The notes under the pieces: generated by a model
Told to the model about the DNA's origin: nothing
The model's input: only the letters and a program-made list of their open reading frames with translations
Databases searched by the model: none
Shown: in pieces, positions 38,309 through 48,567 of the stretch
How positions within the stretch are numbered: the stretch's first letter is position 1
How the letters are laid out: the number at the start of each line of letters is the position of its first letter
Translations under genes and position numbers: made by a program
DNA from: Nitrosopumilus adriaticus
Lineage (GTDB): Archaea > Thermoproteota > Nitrososphaeria > Nitrososphaerales > Nitrosopumilaceae
Assembly: GCF_000956175.1 (NCBI RefSeq)
Contig: NZ_CP011070.1
Coordinates: forward strand, 496,001-560,000
Length of the DNA: 64,000 nt
Reading direction: 5' to 3'

Positions 38309-39345
38309 CACATCTTTGGATCAAGGCCTTTGGCCAGTCTTAATGCATCAACTAAACCATCTGCGTACCCAATACTCAATATTGCTACCTCATCCTGACC
38401 GTCTTCAAGAAATTTTTCTGCATCTTTAATGTACAACTCTGCATTTTCTAATATCACCTGAAATTCTTTTTGATTTTTATAATGTGGCTCAATTTCCTCC
38501 AAGGCCTCTCTTACCATTGGTACATATTTTTCCATCATTTGTTTTGAAATTTTCTTTGTTTTTTCAGAATTGTCAAATGGTTCGTCAATGCATTGACCTA
38601 ATATCTTCAATGCATCTGATTCTGTAAAATGTAGTCTTCCTGGTATTATCACGGTATGGGGCGGCTTTCCAAAATCTTTTTTCTTTAAACTGGAAATTTT
38701 TCCTGAAATAATTAATTGATCTTTGAATCCTATTCTTGATGCAATAATTGCATAGCTATCTGAACTGATCACATTTCTTTTTTGTCCTTTTTCTGTTTCT
38801 AATAATCCATCTAGTGCATCTTTAGGATCTAAGAAAAAATCTTTGTCTTGATTATATTCTAAAAGAAGAACTGTGTGATTTCCTTCAATAATGTTTTTGT
38901 AAATTACATAATATGGAGTTGTAAGCGATTTCATTTCGCTCATTATCGTTGCAATTCGTCCTACTTTGTAAAAATGTAAACCACATTCTCCAATCATTGA
39001 AGTAAGAGAAGATGAGGCATGAATCGAATGTGTTTTTATTTTTTCCTCAATTGCTCTTGTTCTTAATTCGATATGCGTTGTTGCAATGTAAGGATCCCCG
39101 TATGATAGTAAAACTACTTTCTTTTTCTTTGAATTTTTTAGAATTTCATTTCCGTCTTCTACAAGCCATCTTTTTGCTGGCTTGAATTCTCCTTTAGTGG
39201 CATTTTTAATTTTGGTTAAATCTGATTTTCCTATTGGACTTGTAAATTGTTCAAGGTATACAATATCTGCCTTTGATAAAATATCGATTGCCTCATTGGG
39301 GATTGATTTGAATCCCGAAATTCCTAATCCTACAAACCACAGCAT
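38308..39345 (-). CDS. dphB: Diphthine synthase fused to a DUF357 domain
   Basis: MLWFVGLGISGFKSIPNEAI and LLSYGDPYIATTH are the tetrapyrrole-methylase-fold signatures of DphB, the SAM-dependent enzyme of diphthamide synthesis on elongation factor 2. After about residue 260 a second part (TKKISKQMMEKYVPMVREAL through LYIKDAEKFLEDGQDEVAIL and YADGLVDALRL) matches DUF357, usually a separate small archaeal protein. The fusion gives 345 aa against about 260 for DphB alone. Overlaps lysK by TAATG. Confidence 0.9.
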   Translation of the reverse strand: MLWFVGLGISGFKSIPNEAIDILSKADIVYLEQFTSPIGKSDLTKIKNATKGEFKPAKRWLVEDGNEILKNSKKKKVVLLSYGDPYIATTHIELRTRAIEEKIKTHSIHASSSLTSMIGECGLHFYKVGRIATIMSEMKSLTTPYYVIYKNIIEGNHTVLLLEYNQDKDFFLDPKDALDGLLETEKGQKRNVISSDSYAIIASRIGFKDQLIISGKISSLKKKDFGKPPHTVIIPGRLHFTESDALKILGQCIDEPFDNSEKTKKISKQMMEKYVPMVREALEEIEPHYKNQKEFQVILENAELYIKDAEKFLEDGQDEVAILSIGYADGLVDALRLAKGLDPKM

Positions 39346-40469
39346 TACTGCATCTTTCTGTCATGAAGTCTTTTTAAATGCTGTAGAGTTTTCTTTAAGA
39401 TTTCTATCCCTTTAAGATATTCTTCAATGGATACTTTTTCATCAATGGTGTGTGCCTCATGAGGATCTCCAGGACCATACGTGACTACAGGAATTTCCCA
39501 TTGATTCCCCAGGACATTCATGTCGCCAGTTCCTGTTTTTCTAATTAATGTGGCCCTTGACTGTGTTTCCTCAAGAATACCTAATGTCAGTGCTCTGACT
39601 AGTGGTGAGTTGTGTGGTGCCTCAAATGGTTCAGTCTCATCAAGAATTGAATAAAATGCTTCAACTTGTCTTTTTTGAGAAATCTCTTTAACAATTTCTG
39701 CAATCTTTTGCTCGATAGTTTTACAATTCATATCTACTGGAATTCTAATGTCAAAAACTGTTTCACATTCCTTTGGTGTAATATTATGGCTAGTACCTCC
39801 TCTAATCTCTGTCATTGATGAAGTCAACAACATTCCTTTAGATTTGCCTTCTTGATTTTCTTCCAATCTTTCTTTTAATTCACTTGCAAAAATCATTGAT
39901 TCATGAATGGCGTTTTTTGAAAGCCATGGTGCACTTGCATGTGAACTATCATCTACACTTATTTTGAGATTAATAGCTAGCCTTCCCTTGTATGCAATTG
40001 TTACCTGATTAATTCCACTAGGCTCTCCAAAAATTGCATAATCAATTCCAATTTCTTTTTTTACGAGATTTTTAATTCCAGTTGCATTTCCTTCTTCATC
40101 AACTGCTCCGACAAAAATTATGGTTCCGTTATTGTTCTGAATTGATGCTGCTGCAAATAACATTGCCATTAATGGGGCTTTAGCATCTGATGCTCCTCTG
40201 CCATATAGTGCATCACCTTCTTTTCTAACTTTGACTTTTCCTGGTACAACATCCATGTGGCCACATAACATGATTTTTGGAGATCCTGTTCCTTTCCTTG
40301 CAATAACATTACCGACTTCATCTATCTGTATATCTTCAAATCCCAAGTCATCACATTTGTCAGCTAAAAATTCTGCCATTGGTTTTTCACTTAGTGATGG
40401 CGTGTAGAGTCTCAATGCTTTCTCTAGCATCTTAATTGCAAATCTTGATTCTGATAGATGTTTGGTCAA
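39345..40469 (-). CDS. lysK: LysW-amino acid hydrolase (M20 deacetylase family)
   Basis: Zinc-dependent M20 peptidase fold: LCGHMDVVPG, YGRGASDAKAPL, VGAVDEEGNATG and GEPSG give the metal ligands and catalytic Glu. It releases lysine (and probably ornithine) from the LysW carrier, the last step of the pathway. The start seems to be TTG at 40469. Located in the minus-strand lysine cluster downstream of lysX. Confidence 0.92.
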   Translation of the reverse strand: MTKHLSESRFAIKMLEKALRLYTPSLSEKPMAEFLADKCDDLGFEDIQIDEVGNVIARKGTGSPKIMLCGHMDVVPGKVKVRKEGDALYGRGASDAKAPLMAMLFAAASIQNNNGTIIFVGAVDEEGNATGIKNLVKKEIGIDYAIFGEPSGINQVTIAYKGRLAINLKISVDDSSHASAPWLSKNAIHESMIFASELKERLEENQEGKSKGMLLTSSMTEIRGGTSHNITPKECETVFDIRIPVDMNCKTIEQKIAEIVKEISQKRQVEAFYSILDETEPFEAPHNSPLVRALTLGILEETQSRATLIRKTGTGDMNVLGNQWEIPVVTYGPGDPHEAHTIDEKVSIEEYLKGIEILKKTLQHLKRLHDRKMQ

Positions 40470-40472
40470 TTC

Positions 40473-41315
40473 TTATTTTTCTATATTTAGGGCATAATTT
40501 AGCATTAATGATGGAATGTCTACTTCACAAACTCGAACTGTATTTTTGTATTCTGTAGTGTTGTTTACTTCGTGTACTACCAATCCTTTTTCATCACTTT
40601 CCATCAAATCTACGCCTACAATATCTCCTTGAACTGCATTCTTTGCCTTTATGCACATCTCTTCCATTTCTGGTGTAACCTTGCATGGTTCTGCCTCTCC
40701 GCCAAGTGCCATGTTTGTTTTCCAATGCTTTGATTTTCTGTAAATTGCAGCAACAATTTTATCTCCAACCATGATGGCTCTGATGTCTCTTGGAGGTCTT
40801 TTTACAAATTCTTCCAAATAATGGATTTGATAAATTGGATACATCTTCTCTCTACTTTCAATAATGCCTTCTGCCGCATCTCTGTCGTTAAGTTTTGAAA
40901 TTAGTCTTCCCCAACTTCCAACTGTTGGTTTGATTACTTTGGGAAATCCTTGTGTGTCTAATGCTTCCAAAGCTGCATCTTTTGAAAACGCTACAGTGGC
41001 ATCAGGTGTTGGAACCCCGAATTTTTTTAGTAACATATGTGTGAATAATTTATTTCCAGCAAATACCCCTGTGTTTAGACAATTGATTACTTTGACTCCT
41101 AATCCTTCAAGTGCTGCTGTTGAATGTAAATTTCGGTAGTAGCTTACGCATCTCTGAATCACTACTCCATAATCTTCGGGTTTTTTTTCTAAATCTAATG
41201 CTAGTTTCTTGCAATCTACCATCTGAATATTGATATTGTTTTTTTTACCTGCTTCTAGAAGGGCTTTTTCTTCCCAACGGATGGAATCGTAAAGAATAGT
41301 AACGTCAGAACTCAC
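40473..41315 (-). CDS. lysX: ATP-grasp ligase LysX (LysW-alpha-aminoadipate ligase)
   Basis: LysX/RimK-type ATP-grasp: VTILYDSIRWEEKALLEAGK, QRCVSYYRNLHSTAALEG, PKVIKPTVGSWGRL and VVHEVNNTTEYKN. It joins alpha-aminoadipate to the C-terminal Glu of LysW. GTG at 41315 overlaps the lysW stop and gives the usual N terminus; a TTG nine bases upstream would be inside lysW. It is paired with the lysW copy at 41312 and the downstream lysK, which is why I assign it to lysine rather than arginine. Confidence 0.85.
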   Translation of the reverse strand: MSSDVTILYDSIRWEEKALLEAGKKNNINIQMVDCKKLALDLEKKPEDYGVVIQRCVSYYRNLHSTAALEGLGVKVINCLNTGVFAGNKLFTHMLLKKFGVPTPDATVAFSKDAALEALDTQGFPKVIKPTVGSWGRLISKLNDRDAAEGIIESREKMYPIYQIHYLEEFVKRPPRDIRAIMVGDKIVAAIYRKSKHWKTNMALGGEAEPCKVTPEMEEMCIKAKNAVQGDIVGVDLMESDEKGLVVHEVNNTTEYKNTVRVCEVDIPSLMLNYALNIEK

Positions 41316-41479
41316 TGTCCCCAATCCTCGCCAACCGTTTGGGCAGGCTTTAGTTGGAAACCGTCTGAACTTTTTTCTAATTCAAAACTTGCGCCACATT
41401 CGGGACATGTTACAATTTCTCCTTCAAGTGCATCACTTGGGATGGATATTTCTGCATCACATTCTTCACATTTTGACAT
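41312..41479 (-). CDS. lysW: Amino-group carrier protein LysW, copy 1, ending EDWGQ
   Basis: 55 aa. MSKCEECDAE and TCPECGASF are two CxxC pairs forming the zinc ribbon; the C terminus reads VGEDWGQ. The family ends EDWGE, where the side chain of the last Glu takes the substrate. Here the last codon is CAG (Gln) instead of GAG, a single-base difference. The TGA stop overlaps the GTG of lysX. The second copy at 47104 ends normally in Glu. The gene is too short for many annotation cut-offs. Confidence 0.88.
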   Translation of the reverse strand: MSKCEECDAEISIPSDALEGEIVTCPECGASFELEKSSDGFQLKPAQTVGEDWGQ

Positions 41480-41501: not shown

Positions 41502-42686
41502 TTATTTATCATTAATTATCTTTTTTTCAAGTCTGTCTTCGAGTGGTATTTCTATGAGATCTCCCATTCTGAGTCCTTTTAGTCCTGCAGCCACTGCCTT
41601 TGCACTCTCATCATCTTTCTCTAGTCCTAATAATGACATCAAGTAGGCTGCACCTGTTTTTCCTGCAAGCTCTCCAAAGACAATTCGTCTTCGATTACCT
41701 ACTGCCCTTGGTGGGATGGGCTCGTATGCTGCTGGATTTCTAAGAATTGCTGCAAGATGCGTTCCTGCTTTGTGTTTGTATGCTGATGAACCAACAATTG
41801 GTTTTGAATCATATGGTTTAATTGATGTGTACTCTTCAATTAATCTTGAAAGGTCTAGTAACATATCTAATCTGAAATCATTTGGTGATTTGTATAGGTA
41901 TGTCAATGCAACTGCTACTTCAGCTAGTGGTGGAATTCCAGTTCTTTCCCCAATCCCATCAATAGTAGTATGAATTTGATCAACTCCTGCATCACATGCT
42001 GAAAATGCATTTGCTACTGCAAATCCTATATCATTGTGAACATGTGCATCTAGTGGAACATCAACTGCATCTCTAACTTTTTTTACAAAATTATACATTC
42101 CAATCGGACGTAATATTCCAACTGTGTCCGGAAGGCTGATTCTATCAACACCTGCTTCCTCTATGGCTTTACAAACTTTGATCAAAAATTCTGGCTCTGC
42201 TCTACTTCCGTCCTCAACTGTAAATCTAATTTTTAGACCATGAGATTTGGCATACTCTACTGTTTCAACTGATCTTCTTAATGCTTCTTCTCGTGAAATA
42301 CGTAATTTGTCTTTAAGATGAATATCTGAAATTCCTAAATATGCTGCACACCATTTAGCATCACAATCTAATGAAATGTCGATGTCTTCTTTTAGTGCAC
42401 GTCCATGTGAAACAATATCTGCTTTTAATCCCTGCTTGATTATTGTCTTAGTTGCTTCTTTATGATCATTTGAAACTACTGGTGATATCTCGATTTGATC
42501 TACACCAAAATAATCTAACATCCATGCAATCTGAATTCTTTGTTTGTTAGTAAATGAGACTCCTGGGTGTTGTTCTCCTTCTCTTAGAGTGCTATCTAAT
42601 ACCCTGATCTTCTTTGGATTTTTATCATACGAGTTGTAGATGTTTGCATAGTGATTCGGATCTTTCATTACTGAAATCGTTGACAT
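41502..42686 (-). CDS. lysS: Homocitrate synthase (LysS)
   Basis: HMGL-like TIM barrel: RVLDSTLREGEQHPGVSFT is the catalytic N-terminal motif, DAHVHNDIGFAVANAFSACDAG the metal-binding region, and GIGERTGIPPLAEV the family signature. It condenses 2-oxoglutarate with acetyl-CoA, the first step of the alpha-aminoadipate route. 394 aa is normal for the archaeal form. It heads the second half of the lysine cluster, 22 bases before lysW. Confidence 0.92.
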   Translation of the reverse strand: MSTISVMKDPNHYANIYNSYDKNPKKIRVLDSTLREGEQHPGVSFTNKQRIQIAWMLDYFGVDQIEISPVVSNDHKEATKTIIKQGLKADIVSHGRALKEDIDISLDCDAKWCAAYLGISDIHLKDKLRISREEALRRSVETVEYAKSHGLKIRFTVEDGSRAEPEFLIKVCKAIEEAGVDRISLPDTVGILRPIGMYNFVKKVRDAVDVPLDAHVHNDIGFAVANAFSACDAGVDQIHTTIDGIGERTGIPPLAEVAVALTYLYKSPNDFRLDMLLDLSRLIEEYTSIKPYDSKPIVGSSAYKHKAGTHLAAILRNPAAYEPIPPRAVGNRRRIVFGELAGKTGAAYLMSLLGLEKDDESAKAVAAGLKGLRMGDLIEIPLEDRLEKKIINDK

Positions 42687-42785: not shown

Positions 42786-43226
42786 TTAGATTATTTTTCT
42801 CAAAATAATCACCGTGTTTGTATCGACAACACCTGGAATCTTCCTTAATGCGTCAATGGTATTGTTAATTTCAGCGATACTTGATGCACTCATAATTGTT
42901 GTAATGTCGTATTGACCAGTTATTTCATAAACTGTTTTTACCCCTTCTAGTTTTGCAAGTTTGAGTGAAACTTTTGATGTGTCTGTTGCAGAATCAACTG
43001 ATACTAAAACAATCGCGCTTGTTGCATTCTCTTCTCCAAGTTCCAAAGTAAATTTTTTGATGGTTCCGCTGTCTACGAGGTTTTTTACTCTTCGTCTTAC
43101 TGCTGATTCAGAAAGTTTTAATTTTTTACCTATATCCACAAACGATTCTCTGGCATCTTCTTTTAGATACCCGATAATTTTTTCGTCTACTTTATCCTTG
43201 TACAACTTTTTTTTGCTCCTCTTCAC
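42786..43226 (-). CDS. lysM: Lrp/AsnC-family regulator (LysM-like)
   Basis: HTH: EKIIGYLKEDARESFVDIGKKLKLSESAVRRRVKNLVDSG; RAM domain: VSVDSATDTSKVSLKLAKLEGVKTVYEITGQYD. Its place within the lysine cluster matches LysM regulators that sense lysine. It overlaps the end of lysJ by 35 bases; a TTG start at 43205 would shorten the overlap. Likely controls this operon. Confidence 0.88.
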   Translation of the reverse strand: MKRSKKKLYKDKVDEKIIGYLKEDARESFVDIGKKLKLSESAVRRRVKNLVDSGTIKKFTLELGEENATSAIVLVSVDSATDTSKVSLKLAKLEGVKTVYEITGQYDITTIMSASSIAEINNTIDALRKIPGVVDTNTVIILRKII

Positions 43227-44373
43227 TTAGTACAGAATCTAGAGCATGTAAAACTTTTGTTATGTCTTCTTCAGAAATCACTAATGGTGGGAGAATTCTT
43301 AGAATGTTTCTTCCTGAGTATAGCATGAGGACCCCTTTTTTCATTAATCCCATTAGTATGTCTTTAACTTCAAATTTCATCTCTATTCCTATCATTAGTC
43401 CTTTGCCGCGAATTTCTCTTATCATGGTATGATTCTCTTTTAGTTTCTCCAAGCCTTCTCTGAATATTTTGCCCATCTTTTCGGAATTCTCAATTAATCC
43501 ATCTTCAGTTAATGCCTTGAGTGCTGCAGTTCCTGCTGCACATGATAATGGGTTTCCTCCAAATGTTGAAGAGTGTTCTCCCTTACTTATTGCAGCAAGT
43601 ATGTCTGGTCTTACCAGTGTAGCTCCCATTGGAACTCCACCTGCAATTCCTTTTGCAAGACACAAAATGTCTGGTGCAGTATTCCAATGCTCACATGCCC
43701 ATAATCGTCCTGTTCTTCCTAAACCGGCTTGTATTTCGTCAAAAATTAGCAGAATCCCCTTTTCGTCACAAAGCTTTCGTACATCCTGCAAAAATCCATC
43801 TGGTGCAACAATAATTCCGCTTTCACCTTGAATTGGTTCTAAAATTACAAATGCGGTATCATCGTCAATTACTGAACGAAGTGATTCAATATCTCCAAAA
43901 GATGCAAAAGAAACTTTCTCGACTAGTGGTTTGAATGCTTTTTTGTATTTTGGATTAAATGTTAGTGATAATGCGCCAAATGATTTACCATGATATGATC
44001 CTTTCATTGCAACCATTCCTTTTTTACCTGTGAATTTTCTTGCAAACTTCATTGCAGCTTCAATTGCTTCTGCACCACTATTGTTCAGGTGAACTTGTGT
44101 GAGTCCTTTAGGAGCTAATCCGATTAATGTTTTGAGAAACTCTTCTCTTGTTTTGTTGTATAAGGAACTGTGAACTGTAATGATTTTATCTACTTGTTCT
44201 TTAATTGCGTTGTTGACTCTTTGATTTTGGTGACCAACTAGTGCAACACCGTATCCGCCCATGCAATCGATGTATTCTTTACCATCGACATCCCATACGT
44301 GTGATCCTTTTCCTTTCTCAACTGTAACTGGAAATCTCTGATAGAGATTTCCCATAAATTGATCTTCACTCAT
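43192..44373 (-). CDS. lysJ: LysW-aminoadipate semialdehyde aminotransferase
   Basis: Class III PLP aminotransferase: LIFDEIQAGLGRTG, then LAKGIAGGVPMGA with the Schiff-base Lys, and STFGGNPLSCAAG. It transaminates the LysW-bound semialdehyde to LysW-lysine, and probably the arginine-branch intermediate to LysW-ornithine. I use ATG 44373, inside the end of lysZ; a TTG six bases upstream is also in frame. Confidence 0.92.
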   Translation of the reverse strand: MSEDQFMGNLYQRFPVTVEKGKGSHVWDVDGKEYIDCMGGYGVALVGHQNQRVNNAIKEQVDKIITVHSSLYNKTREEFLKTLIGLAPKGLTQVHLNNSGAEAIEAAMKFARKFTGKKGMVAMKGSYHGKSFGALSLTFNPKYKKAFKPLVEKVSFASFGDIESLRSVIDDDTAFVILEPIQGESGIIVAPDGFLQDVRKLCDEKGILLIFDEIQAGLGRTGRLWACEHWNTAPDILCLAKGIAGGVPMGATLVRPDILAAISKGEHSSTFGGNPLSCAAGTAALKALTEDGLIENSEKMGKIFREGLEKLKENHTMIREIRGKGLMIGIEMKFEVKDILMGLMKKGVLMLYSGRNILRILPPLVISEEDITKVLHALDSVLSEEEQKKVVQG

Positions 44374-45169
44374 GTTCAATCACCGTACAATTATCATGTG
44401 CAATCGCAGATGATATTGGATTTTCTTTTTGTCCATTTGCAATCAATGCTTCTTTTACCCCCATATCTAATGCTTCTGTTGATGCTAGGATCTTCTTTTC
44501 CATCCCTGGTCCAATTTTTGGTCTGATCTCTTTTGCTTCTGCTAATGTCAACTTTGAAACAAGTTTCTCATCCATTAGCAGTCCATCTACATTAGTAATG
44601 AATAATACTTTGTCACTTCCAACTTTTCCTGCAACATATGCTGCAGCTCTATCACCATCTACATTAAGAAATTCTGATTCTTCACTAATCGCAATTGGTG
44701 ATATTACTGGTGTTAATCCCTGCTCTAAGAGAGATTTGATGAATTTTGAGTTGATATCGGTAATTTTGCCTGTATATCCGCCATCAATTGCCTGTTTTCT
44801 GCCTTTTTCGTTAACTATGAGAAGCTTCTTTTTTCTGTCTGCTTGAATAATTTTTGCATCAACTCCTGATAGGCCTATTGCATTGATTCCATTTTTTTGA
44901 AGCATCTGGACAATGGTTTTGTTTATTCTACCTGACATTACCATTGTAAAAATCTCTGCAGTTTCTTTATCGGTATATCTACTTTTGATGCCACTTGGTG
45001 ATGTTACAAATTTTGGTTCCTTTCCAAGTTGTTCACAAACTTTTGTAACCTCTTTTCCACCTCCATGCACTATGATTATTCCTTCTGACTCTGCAACTTT
45101 TTTAATATCTGCGATTGTAGATGGATGTAAATTATCTACTACACTTCCACCAATTTTGATTGTGATCAT
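44366..45169 (-). CDS. lysZ: LysW-aminoadipate/glutamate kinase
   Basis: Amino-acid kinase fold: ITIKIGGSVVDN, VHGGGKEV, SGRINKTIVQML and NVDGDRAAAYVA. It phosphorylates the side-chain carboxyl of the LysW-bound amino acid. 267 aa as usual. Two bases separate it from lysY and it overlaps lysJ by a few bases. Confidence 0.92.
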   Translation of the reverse strand: MITIKIGGSVVDNLHPSTIADIKKVAESEGIIIVHGGGKEVTKVCEQLGKEPKFVTSPSGIKSRYTDKETAEIFTMVMSGRINKTIVQMLQKNGINAIGLSGVDAKIIQADRKKKLLIVNEKGRKQAIDGGYTGKITDINSKFIKSLLEQGLTPVISPIAISEESEFLNVDGDRAAAYVAGKVGSDKVLFITNVDGLLMDEKLVSKLTLAEAKEIRPKIGPGMEKKILASTEALDMGVKEALIANGQKENPISSAIAHDNCTVIEHE

Positions 45170-45171
45170 TT

Positions 45172-46218
45172 CTAAACAGGAGTTAATGGTGTATTTCTAA
45201 GCCCATCCATTTCATCAAAACCGCACATAACATTCATGTTTTGAATGGCTGAACCTGCTGCACCTTTCATCAAGTTATCTGATGCAGATAATGCAATTAA
45301 TCTATTGTTGTCTTCATCAAGATCAAACCCTATATCACAAAAGTTTGAACCAACTAAGAATTTTGGATCAGGGAATTTGTATAATCCTTTTTTATCTCTA
45401 ATTAGTCTGATGAATCTTTCTTCACCATAAGTTTGTCGATATAATTTCCATAATTCTTTTTCATCAATATCTTTTTTCAAGAATGTGTGATTTGTACATA
45501 AAATTCCTCGAACTACATCTACAGCATGTGGGCTCATTGAGACACGAATTTTATGCCCTGCAATCTCACTTAGTTCTTGTTCAATCTCACCTGTATGTCT
45601 GTGCTTTGCTGGTTTGTATGGTCTGATTACTCCTGCTCTCATTGCATGTGCAGTGCCTGAACCAGAACCTGCACCAGAAGAACCGATTTTAGAATCAACT
45701 ACAATATGTTCTGTATCAATAATGTCATTTCTAATCAATGGTGCAAGTGCTAGCATTGATGTTACTGCCATGCATCCTGGACATGAAACAAGCTGTGCTT
45801 TTTTAATCGCTTCTCGGTGTAATTCAGGTACTCCGAAAACTGATTTTGCTAAATAATCTGGATGTGGGTGTTCCCAGCCATACCATTTGTCGTATGCATC
45901 CTGATTATGCAATCTATAATCTGCACTCAAATCAATCACCTTGACTCCTCTGTCATAGAGTGCCTTTACAATCTCAGTTGCAGTTCCATGAGGAACTGCT
46001 GTAAATACTAAATCACATTGATCAGTTAATTTGTCATAATCTAATTCGGAAAACATCAGATCTGTAAATCCTTTCAAACTTGGTTGAACTCTGTGGAGAT
46101 ACTCTCCAACATGCTGCCTTGATGTCACCATGCCGATCTCAACATCAGGGTGATTAACAAGTAGACGAAGTGTTTCTCCACCTACATAACCTGATGCGCC
46201 AACTACACCTACTTTCAT
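45172..46218 (-). CDS. lysY: LysW-phosphate reductase
   Basis: ArgC-type reductase: VGVVGASGYVGGETLRLL binds NADPH; SCPGCMAVTS holds the catalytic Cys; HRHTGEIEQEL and SPHAVDVVRG follow. It reduces the acyl-phosphate to the semialdehyde on LysW. Just upstream (46219-46235) GAGGAGGTTTATC gives a strong ribosome site on the minus strand, suggesting separate translation control from argX. Confidence 0.92.
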   Translation of the reverse strand: MKVGVVGASGYVGGETLRLLVNHPDVEIGMVTSRQHVGEYLHRVQPSLKGFTDLMFSELDYDKLTDQCDLVFTAVPHGTATEIVKALYDRGVKVIDLSADYRLHNQDAYDKWYGWEHPHPDYLAKSVFGVPELHREAIKKAQLVSCPGCMAVTSMLALAPLIRNDIIDTEHIVVDSKIGSSGAGSGSGTAHAMRAGVIRPYKPAKHRHTGEIEQELSEIAGHKIRVSMSPHAVDVVRGILCTNHTFLKKDIDEKELWKLYRQTYGEERFIRLIRDKKGLYKFPDPKFLVGSNFCDIGFDLDEDNNRLIALSASDNLMKGAAGSAIQNMNVMCGFDEMDGLRNTPLTPV

Positions 46219-46246: not shown

Positions 46247-47104
46247 TTATTTCCTAACGTAGTTTAGGGCAAATTCTACCATTTCTTTTGGTATATTTCG
46301 TTGTGAAACTCTTGCCAATCCTTTGAATTCTACTGTATTATTGACTTCATGTACTACTAACCCCCTCTGATCGTCTTCCATCATATCAATTCCCAAAATT
46401 CCACCGCCCATTGCTTTTGATGCTTTACTGGCCATATCCTCCATCTCTTTTGTTATCTCACAAAGTTCTGGATCTGCTCCTAATGCGATATTTGTTTTAA
46501 AACCACCTGATGACTTTCTATACATTGCAGCTACTGGCTCATCACCTACTGTGATTACTCTGATGTCTCTTGGTGGTCTCTTGATTAATTCTTGCAAATA
46601 GTAAATTCTGTCATGTGGGCTATCTGTGATGTCTCTGATTTCAAAAACTGCCTCCATTGTATCCTTATCTTTTAATGGCATCACTCCTCTTCCCCAACTT
46701 CCAATTACAGGTTTAATGACTAGAGGGAATCCAACTTTTTCTAAATTCTCAGCTGCACTTTCACTTGAAAATGAAAAATATGTCTTTGGAGTTGGAATAT
46801 TATTTTTTTTTAAAAGTAATGTCATGAACATCTTATTTCCACAAATATTTGCAACTTCGAATTTGTTTAAAACTGGAATATCTAAAAACTCTAAACTTGC
46901 AGTAAAATGGAGACCTCTGAAATAGCTGACGCATCTTTCTAGAACGATATCTCCTAAATCATAGTCTTCTTTTTTACTATCTGTGTTTATTTGAGTAATT
47001 TTTGCATCAAGCATTACTGCATCGTGTCCTAGTTCTGATGCTTCTTTTTGGAGCATCTTCTCTTCCGCTCTTAGGCGGTCAAACACAATACAGACTTTTG
47101 ACAT
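46247..47104 (-). CDS. argX: ATP-grasp ligase ArgX (LysW-glutamate ligase)
   Basis: Second LysX/RimK-type ligase: CIVFDRLRAEEKMLQKEASE, LERCVSYFRGLHFTAS, LVIKPVIGSWGRGV and VVHEVNNTVEFKG. About as long as the copy at 40473 and clearly a paralogue. It is coupled to the lysW copy at 47104 (TAATG) and to argG, which favours the glutamate/arginine role; the assignment between LysX and ArgX is inference from context. Confidence 0.82.
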   Translation of the reverse strand: MSKVCIVFDRLRAEEKMLQKEASELGHDAVMLDAKITQINTDSKKEDYDLGDIVLERCVSYFRGLHFTASLEFLDIPVLNKFEVANICGNKMFMTLLLKKNNIPTPKTYFSFSSESAAENLEKVGFPLVIKPVIGSWGRGVMPLKDKDTMEAVFEIRDITDSPHDRIYYLQELIKRPPRDIRVITVGDEPVAAMYRKSSGGFKTNIALGADPELCEITKEMEDMASKASKAMGGGILGIDMMEDDQRGLVVHEVNNTVEFKGLARVSQRNIPKEMVEFALNYVRK

Positions 47105-47271
47105 TACTCTCCCCAGTCTTCGCCTACGGTTTCTGCTTGTTTAAGCTCAACATTTGATCCGTCTTTTTTTGAGATTTCAAAGTCAGCGCCACAATCAGGA
47201 CAGGAGACAATTTCTCCAACTGAGGCATCGTCTGGGATGTTTAGTGTTGCGTCACATTCTGGGCAGTTCAT
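47104..47271 (-). CDS. lysW: Amino-group carrier protein LysW, copy 2, ending EDWGE
   Basis: 55 aa. MNCPECDATL and SCPDCGADF are the zinc-ribbon CxxC pairs; the end is VGEDWGE with the acceptor Glu. Its ATG overlaps the argG stop (ATGA) and its TAA overlaps the argX ATG. This copy has the conserved acceptor residue, unlike the copy at 41312, and can serve arginine synthesis and probably also lysine. Confidence 0.9.
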   Translation of the reverse strand: MNCPECDATLNIPDDASVGEIVSCPDCGADFEISKKDGSNVELKQAETVGEDWGE

Positions 47272-48467
47272 GTTTTTGTTGACCTTTTCTTTTGTAATTT
47301 ATTAGCTTCTGTTGACTGCATTCCCCACAATTCTACAAATCCTTTGGCTAATCTTTGATCAAAAGTTGATTCTGTACCGTATGTGGCAATTTCGTGACTG
47401 TATAATGAATTATTTGATTTTCTGCCGACTACTCTAAGACTTCCTTTGAACATCTTTAGTTTCACAGTTCCAGAAACTGGTTTTTGTGATTGTTCAATGA
47501 ATCCATCAAGATCTGCTCTCAGTGGATCTTGCCAAAGTCCTGAGTATACCAAATATGCCCATTCATCATCTATTATTGATTTGAACTTATTTTCATGCTT
47601 TGTATGGACCATTTTTTCCAAATCTGAATGAGCTTCAATTAGACATGTGGCAGCTGGAGTCTCGTACACTTCTCTTGATTTGATTCCAACAACTCTATCC
47701 TCAATATGATCAACTATCCCAACTCCTGCATCTCCTGCTTTTTTGTTAATGTATTCGATAAGTTTTTGTGATTCCAGTTTTTTTCCATCTACTGCAACAG
47801 GAATCCCCTGTTCGAATTTAATTTCCAAGTATGCTGGTTTATCTGGTAAGTTTTTTGTTTTAACCCAAATGAATGCATCATCTGGTGGTTCATTGTATGG
47901 ATCCTCTAGTACTCCGCCCTCTATTGCACGTCCCCACAAATTTTGATCAATACTAAATCTTTTTGCTACAGCATCGATTTCTATTCCGTGTTTATTTGCA
48001 AATTTTAATTCTGTTTCCCTGTCTAGATTTTTATCGCGTATAGGAGCTATGATTGGAAGGTCTGAGCCGGAACGCAATGTAATGTCAAATCGTACTTGAT
48101 CATTTCCTTTTCCTGAACATCCATGTGCAAGTGAAGTTACTTTTTCTTTTTTTGCAATCTCTAATACTTTTTCTGCAATTAATGGTCGTGCAAGAGCTGT
48201 TGCAAGACAATATTTTTTCTGATAAAGAGCATTTGCTTTTATTGATGGAAAAATGTAATCTTTGACAAATTCTTTTCTAGCATCAATGTTGTAGTGTTTT
48301 TTTACACCAAGTTTTTTTGCTTTGGCTGCAATTTTTTTAGTATCATCGCATTGACCTACATCAACTGTTACTGTAATGACATCCATGTCATGTTCTTCTT
48401 GCAAATATTTTACAACTACTGAAGTATCTAATCCTCCTGAAAATGCAAGAATTCCTTTTTGTGTCAT
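47268..48467 (-). CDS. argG: Argininosuccinate synthase
   Basis: ATP-pyrophosphatase: GILAFSGGLDTSVVVKYL is the nucleotide loop near residue 5, with AHGCSGKGNDQVRF and the C-terminal FDQRLAKGFVELWG. It joins citrulline and aspartate. I use ATG 48467 because the Ser/Gly-rich loop follows directly as in the family; an in-frame upstream start would add 19 unrelated residues. It begins the argG-lysW-argX-lysYZJ-lysM series. Confidence 0.93.
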   Translation of the reverse strand: MTQKGILAFSGGLDTSVVVKYLQEEHDMDVITVTVDVGQCDDTKKIAAKAKKLGVKKHYNIDARKEFVKDYIFPSIKANALYQKKYCLATALARPLIAEKVLEIAKKEKVTSLAHGCSGKGNDQVRFDITLRSGSDLPIIAPIRDKNLDRETELKFANKHGIEIDAVAKRFSIDQNLWGRAIEGGVLEDPYNEPPDDAFIWVKTKNLPDKPAYLEIKFEQGIPVAVDGKKLESQKLIEYINKKAGDAGVGIVDHIEDRVVGIKSREVYETPAATCLIEAHSDLEKMVHTKHENKFKSIIDDEWAYLVYSGLWQDPLRADLDGFIEQSQKPVSGTVKLKMFKGSLRVVGRKSNNSLYSHEIATYGTESTFDQRLAKGFVELWGMQSTEANKLQKKRSTKT

Positions 48468-48567
48468 AAAACAACTTTCCCGTCGTATTTTGGAATTTAT
48501 CTTTTGTGATAGGCTAGAAACCAATTATTTTTGAAAAATTTCTGACTAGCTTGAGCTAAAATTCGAT

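Follow-up and report, generated by a model that had tools for sequence, protein, structure and literature searches.

A glutamine-ended LysW amino-group carrier protein in Nitrosopumilus adriaticus and its occurrence among ammonia-oxidising archaea

The stretch of DNA analysed here, referred to as the window, comprises 64,000 nucleotides of the Nitrosopumilus adriaticus genome (class Nitrososphaeria; NZ_CP011070.1; 496,001 to 560,000). A cluster including two LysW-type carrier genes was identified on its minus strand. The first, lysW1 (41312 to 41479), matched the NCBIfam model NF041070 (carrier_LysW_Arch) with 90.2 bits (cut-off, 75) and Pfam family PF21344 with 47.8 bits (cut-off, 27), and the second, ArgW-like one, lysW2 (47104 to 47271), matched NF041070 with 93.2 bits. 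The cut-off of the older lysW model TIGR01206 (53.2) was reached by neither LysW1 (34.1) nor LysW2 (39.7). A protein search at an E value of 10 found only these two LysW copies in the genome, and two proteins exceeded the PF21344 cut-off. Next to lysW1, lysX1 (40473 to 41315) is predicted to encode an ATP-grasp ligase with a GTG start and the motif GSWGR (TIGR02144 LysX_arch, 327.5 bits; cut-off, 275.6), the top match of which among solved chains was 3vpd. A lysK-like gene (39345 to 40469) is predicted to encode a carrier hydrolase of the M20 type (TIGR01902, 273.3 bits; cut-off, 163.1), which scored 275.8 bits, under the cut-off of 363, against the [LysW]-lysine hydrolase model NF003367.

The ATP-grasp ligase gene beside lysW2 (46247 to 47104; TIGR02144, 291.3 bits) is called argX here from its gene place, after lysW2 and argG, the gene for argininosuccinate synthase (47268 to 48524; NF001770, 522.9 bits; cut-off, 334). 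The cluster also includes genes for a LysY-like reductase of the ArgC family (45172 to 46218; TIGR01850, 412 bits; cut-off, 233.6), a LysZ kinase of the [LysW]-aminoadipate/[LysW]-glutamate type (44366 to 45169; NF010662, 302.8 bits; cut-off, 194), a LysJ-like aminotransferase (43192 to 44379; TIGR00707 argD, 442.9 bits; cut-off, 410.05), and the Lrp-type regulator LysM (42786 to 43226; NF040947, 190.1 bits; cut-off, 180), all on the minus strand. The homocitrate/isopropylmalate synthase-like enzyme encoded on the same strand adjoining lysW1 (41502 to 42686) stayed under the curated cut-offs of both the isopropylmalate synthase model NF002085 (420.1 bits; cut-off, 517) and the homocitrate synthase model TIGR02146 LysS (376.6 bits; cut-off, 413.55).

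LysW1 is 55 amino acids long with the C terminus GEDWGQ, and its gene, read from 41479 to 41312, ends GTT GGC GAG GAT TGG GGA CAG TGA. As the initial annotation had reported, the encoded tail is thus EDWGQ, the Gln codon CAG (41315 to 41317), which precedes the stop TGA (41312 to 41314), shares its last G with the GTG start of lysX1 (41315 to 41313), and the second copy keeps Glu, LysW2 (47271 to 47104) ending GEDWGE with the codons GAG TAA. The lysW1/lysX1 overlap is 4 bases. That the overlap forces Gln was considered and rejected, as GAG TGA yields the same GTG and is present in close relatives (L092 to L095). LysW1 has four cysteines at the conserved zinc-binding places, and lysW1 lies beside its ligase gene in a cluster with LysZ, LysY, LysJ, and LysK, the context of the LysW family; at the DNA level, the residue encoded at the place of the C-terminal acceptor Glu of the family is Gln. 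Judged from profile, motif, and context, LysW1 is a LysW and is best called a Gln-ended LysW variant.

Characterized carriers (Thermus LysW, Sulfolobus LysW 3vpb, Thermococcus LysW 5k2m, and Natrinema ArgW) have the same length, zinc-ribbon cysteines, and EDWG tail, and in their systems the carrier gene and those of LysX/ArgX and LysZ/Y/J/K are arranged in the same order. However, the acceptor there is Glu, whereas Gln is encoded here, and the three LysW sequences matched among solved structures all end in Glu.

The initial annotation had also considered that the base might be a recent mutation or an error. The terminal codon of LysW1 was CAG in all 30 nearest copies (29 fetched copies and that of the window), three of the 29 being identical to the window protein over the whole length, so that an assembly error is out. 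In a pattern search, EDWG(E/Q) followed by a stop was found in 367 of 400 genomes of the class and EDWGQ followed by a stop in 263 of the 400. The latter all belonged to family f1, family f3, or one genus (g23) of family f2; no genome of families f4 to f24 among the 400 had it. Conservation of Gln across families of the class refutes a recent mutation, and together with the Gln-ended records of named genera it leaves a sequencing or assembly error, or a mutation new to this strain, with practically no probability. GAG at this position in relatives, which had been taken as the finding that would speak against the Gln, does occur, in a minority of them and as part of repeated Gln/Glu switching; most relatives keep Gln.

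A scan of named records (at least 120 loci) identified Gln-ended LysW in Nitrosopumilus, Nitrosarchaeum, Nitrosotenuis, Nitrosotalea, Nitrosopelagicus, and Cenarchaeum and also in Nitrosocaldus, Nitrososphaera, Nitrosocosmicus, and Nitrosopolaris. Among the 120 loci listed, 105 were LysW ends (5 of them truncated at the edge of the locus), the other 15 being unrelated chance matches. Four of the 105 lie outside the ammonia-oxidiser group: two in Jordarchaeia (L145 and L194), one in Undinarchaeales (L232), and one in a record titled archaeon UBA55 (L235), the LysW of which is nearly identical to that of L232. AmoA (PF12942) was found in 15 of the 32 genomes tested, all 15 in families f1, f2, f3, or f5. 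The idea that a Gln end strictly marks ammonia oxidisers was rejected, as both genomes examined for AmoA and carrier ends in these groups, one of f5 (G298) and one of f2 genus g31 (G305), were AmoA positive with Glu at both carriers.

Carriers were assigned to LysW1 (W1) or LysW2 (W2) by the adjacent ligase in 75 genomes of families f1, f2, f3, and f5. The W1/W2 ends were Gln/Glu in 28 genomes (the window's included), Gln/Gln in 11 (including the one-contig genomes G303, G297, and G304), Glu/Gln in 7, and Glu/Glu in 5; the others were Gln/none (18), none/Gln (2), none/Glu (2), and Glu/none (2), "none" also covering truncated contigs and cases in which the carrier does not adjoin a ligase (G006, G244, G245, and G246). 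A possible third carrier in G303, a PF21344 match below the cut-off (L358), was rejected, as it does not end EDWGE.

Two one-contig genomes of group g24 (G293 and G296) have one LysW each (protein search; E value, 0.01), ending in Gln, together with both ligases. In G293, ArgG runs straight into ArgX with no LysW2 between; in G296, both ArgG and ArgX are present, ArgX lacks a neighbouring carrier, and PF21344 is matched once. G288, another g24 genome on one contig, likewise has one LysW at an E value of 0.01, and it was set aside because the short pattern matched EDWGQ-stop at one more place, which lies outside the fetched cluster and is not a LysW at that E value; the case for a single Gln carrier therefore rests on G293 and G296. 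In all three genomes (L312, L139, and L313, for G293, G296, and G288, respectively), ArgX is present with no LysW2 in the cluster. Comparison with the LysW of named loci suggests that the g24 genomes are Nitrosocosmicus-like. In these genomes, LysX and ArgX would both have to use the one Gln carrier, an arrangement like that of Sulfolobus, in which one LysW is shared by two ligases. Two g41 genomes, G336 (L307) and G347 (L305), have a cluster with one Gln-ended LysW and one LysX and no ArgX or LysW2, and the cluster contents suggest that lysine and arginine synthesis share a single ligase and a single Gln carrier, as in Thermococcus, in which one LysW is used with one ligase (both arrangements as described in PMC10433800). 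In contrast to these systems, the single carrier of g24 and g41 ends in Gln.

In each of the Undinarchaeales genomes G431 and G432, the single PF21344 match ends in Gln and lies in a LysW-LysX-LysY-LysZ-LysJ cluster. Jordarchaeia have a Gln carrier and a Glu carrier in separate clusters: the Gln carrier was seen with LysX, LysY, LysZ, LysJ, and LysK (L145 and L194; LysK partly seen in L194), and the Glu carrier, which ends EEDWGE, with another LysX-LysZ-LysK set near ArgG (L354 and L355). An f1 genome assembled as a single contig of 3.17 Mb (G005; L265) has LysX1 and ArgX, but no LysW1 was matched in the interval from the synthase to LysX1, and the single carrier found ends in Glu. The search for bypass routes was confined to ArgJ, a usual bypass for arginine, which was found in none of the 18 genomes searched (17 Gln-only or Gln/Gln genomes and the window's own), while 10 of 14 controls were positive. 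The notion that one Glu copy is always present is rejected by the genomes with two Gln carriers and by those with a single Gln carrier in which no Glu carrier was found.

The end of the carrier has switched repeatedly. A tree was built from six other proteins of the cluster (85 rows, including 74 from families f1, f2, f3, and f5; a quick search with several long or gappy rows), and on it the minimum number of Glu/Gln changes was at least six for W1 and at least three for W2. The W1 pattern looks as if Gln had been gained twice and Glu regained four times, counts that do not fix the direction. G244 and G245 differ from G246 in the end of a carrier that is not beside a ligase. EDWG was invariant in 70 of 70 W1 rows and 55 of 55 W2 rows, as were the zinc cysteine columns in the rows aligned, and the last column held only Gln or Glu (57 and 13, respectively, in W1; 20 and 35 in W2). 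In the tabulated carriers, Gln was encoded by CAG in 58 cases and by CAA in 23. An any-residue pattern after Gly was searched in 71 genomes and in 250 f1 genomes, a search that overlooks carriers in which another residue precedes EDWG, as in one G006 carrier, and so is not exhaustive; the matches listed (the first 150 rows for the f1 set) all ended in Glu or Gln except G336:C362, which was rejected as a LysW with a different terminal residue because it is not a LysW. A single-base change of GAG can be missense in seven ways, only one of which yields Gln. Nine or more changes without any other residue point to selection for Gln or Glu, as judged by codon-table arithmetic rather than a fitted model. 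Conservation of shape alone could explain part of the restriction, because two-state conservative columns (F/Y and V/I) occur elsewhere in LysW2.

The ligases keep their motifs with either carrier end: GSWGR and HE(V/I/L)N were conserved in 79 of 79 LysX1 and 70 of 70 ArgX sequences, and in a wider set of 193 distinct LysX1 sequences both motifs were present in 187. Adaptation of the ligase was considered and rejected, as in neither LysX1 nor ArgX does any column change strictly with the carrier end. LysX1 columns 31, 33, 37, and 149 (residue numbers count from window position 41306; numbers from the GTG start are higher by 3) covary weakly with the end of the partner carrier. The top ligase score was at residue 37, with 4.4 of 6 independent pairs (619 tests); in the six other cluster proteins, LysK included, none of 4,164 tests reached 4.4 and two reached 3.6 or more. 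Asp31 was found in 144 of the 153 LysX1 sequences with Gln partners and in 27 of the 40 with Glu partners (193 distinct sequences, outgroups included), a loose link. Residues 31, 33, and 37 lie in the N-terminal domain, a possible contact site with the carrier. We regard this weak covariation as a lead only.

The breadth of the Gln end, its repeated switching with Glu, and its presence in the only carrier found in several genomes make it very probable that the Gln-ended LysW is a functional amino-group carrier rather than a decoy. It is hard to see how an inert carrier could suffice by itself, because the terminal Glu is essential where tested: according to PMC10433800, the carrier substitution E54A makes Natrinema gari an arginine auxotroph. 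The same source describes Glu as the linked residue, through its gamma-carboxyl, in Thermus, Sulfolobus, Thermococcus, and Natrinema. We infer, with somewhat better than even confidence, that the Gln carrier is deamidated to Glu before it is charged through this usual gamma-amide link. LysW would be encoded as a pro-form, the terminal Gln of which would be converted to Glu; LysX or ArgX would then join aminoadipate or glutamate to the gamma-carboxyl of the new Glu, and the shared LysZ, LysY, LysJ, and LysK would act as usual. Of the three options raised in the initial annotation (deamidation, a structural partner, and a mutation or error), deamidation is, at this strength, the best supported.

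There is a precedent by analogy in the Pup system. In some actinobacteria, Pup is encoded with a C-terminal Gln that is deamidated to Glu before ligation by Dop, which is both the deamidase of Pup-Gln and the depupylase (PMC8599861), and alternation of Gln and Glu at the carrier C terminus also occurs in LysW. However, the ligases are unrelated, that of LysW being of the ATP-grasp type, and a homologue of PF03136 (PafA/Dop) was found in none of 14 genomes, while 2 of 14 named controls matched, 1 of them above the cut-off. The Gln-ended LysW is accordingly likened to the Gln form of Pup only as an analogy; it does not belong to the Pup system, and its deamidation is proposed by this comparison. 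No match to a Gln-deamidase family was found among the 12 cluster proteins scanned by profile, although LysK is an amide hydrolase. LysK is a candidate for the deamidating agent because it already hydrolyses the amide between this terminal residue and lysine; acting on the terminal carboxamide, it would release ammonia instead of lysine, and this route would require neither an additional gene nor an altered ligase. LysK was found in 71 of the 75 tabulated genomes, including all 71 whose LysX1 was fetched; none was seen within 11 kb around the Undinarchaeales carriers. By analogy, LysK may be the agent, a tentative assignment that carries at most half of the confidence placed in deamidation itself.

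Charging of the Gln carrier without prior deamidation, via either the terminal carboxamide or the alpha-carboxyl, is a possible though clearly less probable course. The LysX1 covariation, if real, would favour either form, because the ligase would then meet the Gln itself; if it does, prior deamidation is wrong. LysX or ArgX might use the Gln side chain directly, ATP activating the carboxamide oxygen and the substrate amine (or water) displacing ammonia, so that Glu and Gln carriers would both be substrates and no separate deamidase would be needed. A tolerant ligase fits the occurrence of Gln in unrelated archaea and its switching with Glu in the absence of a lockstep ligase residue, but we know of no carboxamide-activating reaction of this kind for ATP-grasp ligases. 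The covariation at residues 31 to 37 is weak, and Glu is the linked residue in the four described systems. An ATP-driven attack by the terminal amide has been proposed for Pup-Gln in Dop (PMC8599861), and on balance we consider direct use of the amide unlikely. The linkage may instead have moved to the alpha-carboxyl of the last residue, which with Gln is the sole carboxylate there, Gln or Glu being only a matter of fit. The F/Y and V/I columns of LysW2 agree with mere conservation of shape, but the shared downstream enzymes would need to accept a shorter, differently branched linkage, no residue in the six other cluster proteins reached the top LysX1 score, and the described systems use the gamma-carboxyl; this form seems unlikelier still.

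The codon could be read as Glu often enough, through residual mischarged tRNA, or slow spontaneous deamidation could supply a small working fraction. These archaea make Gln-tRNA from Glu-tRNA(Gln), and a recycled carrier might be needed only in catalytic amounts; however, the long conservation of Gln and its restriction to few lineages would stay unexplained, and we think this improbable. Slightly more improbable is a Gln carrier that goes uncharged, as a structural partner, regulator, or decaying copy, while a Glu carrier does the work. The 28 of 75 genomes in which a Gln LysW1 is accompanied by a Glu LysW2, the window's among them, are consistent with such a division. As a general explanation, the structural partner put forward in the initial annotation fails: it is contradicted by the two-Gln genomes and by those in which the one carrier found ends in Gln, unless these have an undetected carrier or another route, and the retention of the zinc cysteines and EDWG and the use of both CAG and CAA for Gln also speak against it.

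The string EDWGQ was not found in the literature searched, a set whose coverage leaves out most subscription papers, including the original Sulfolobus and Thermus work, and no discussion of a Gln end was found in the accessible, mostly non-subscription literature on LysW with glutamine, Nitrosopumilus, or Thaumarchaeota. The accessible sections of a description of a Nitrosopumilus metabolic model that adds the LysW steps do not mention the Gln end (PMC6038301), and a model with a standard carrier may skip a step. The terminal Glu has been taken as the acceptor of LysW, yet many ammonia-oxidising archaea encode Gln, some of them in the only carrier found. Cells with Gln carriers probably depend on an activation step that has gone unrecognised, or else attach the substrate by another chemistry. 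Either core amino acid synthesis in these organisms includes an unrecognised deamidation, perhaps by LysK, or the chemistry of the ligases is broader than thought. Charging without deamidation, if true, would add another loading chemistry to the one described for amino-group carrier proteins, and in Gln-only species it would serve the synthesis of all lysine and arginine.
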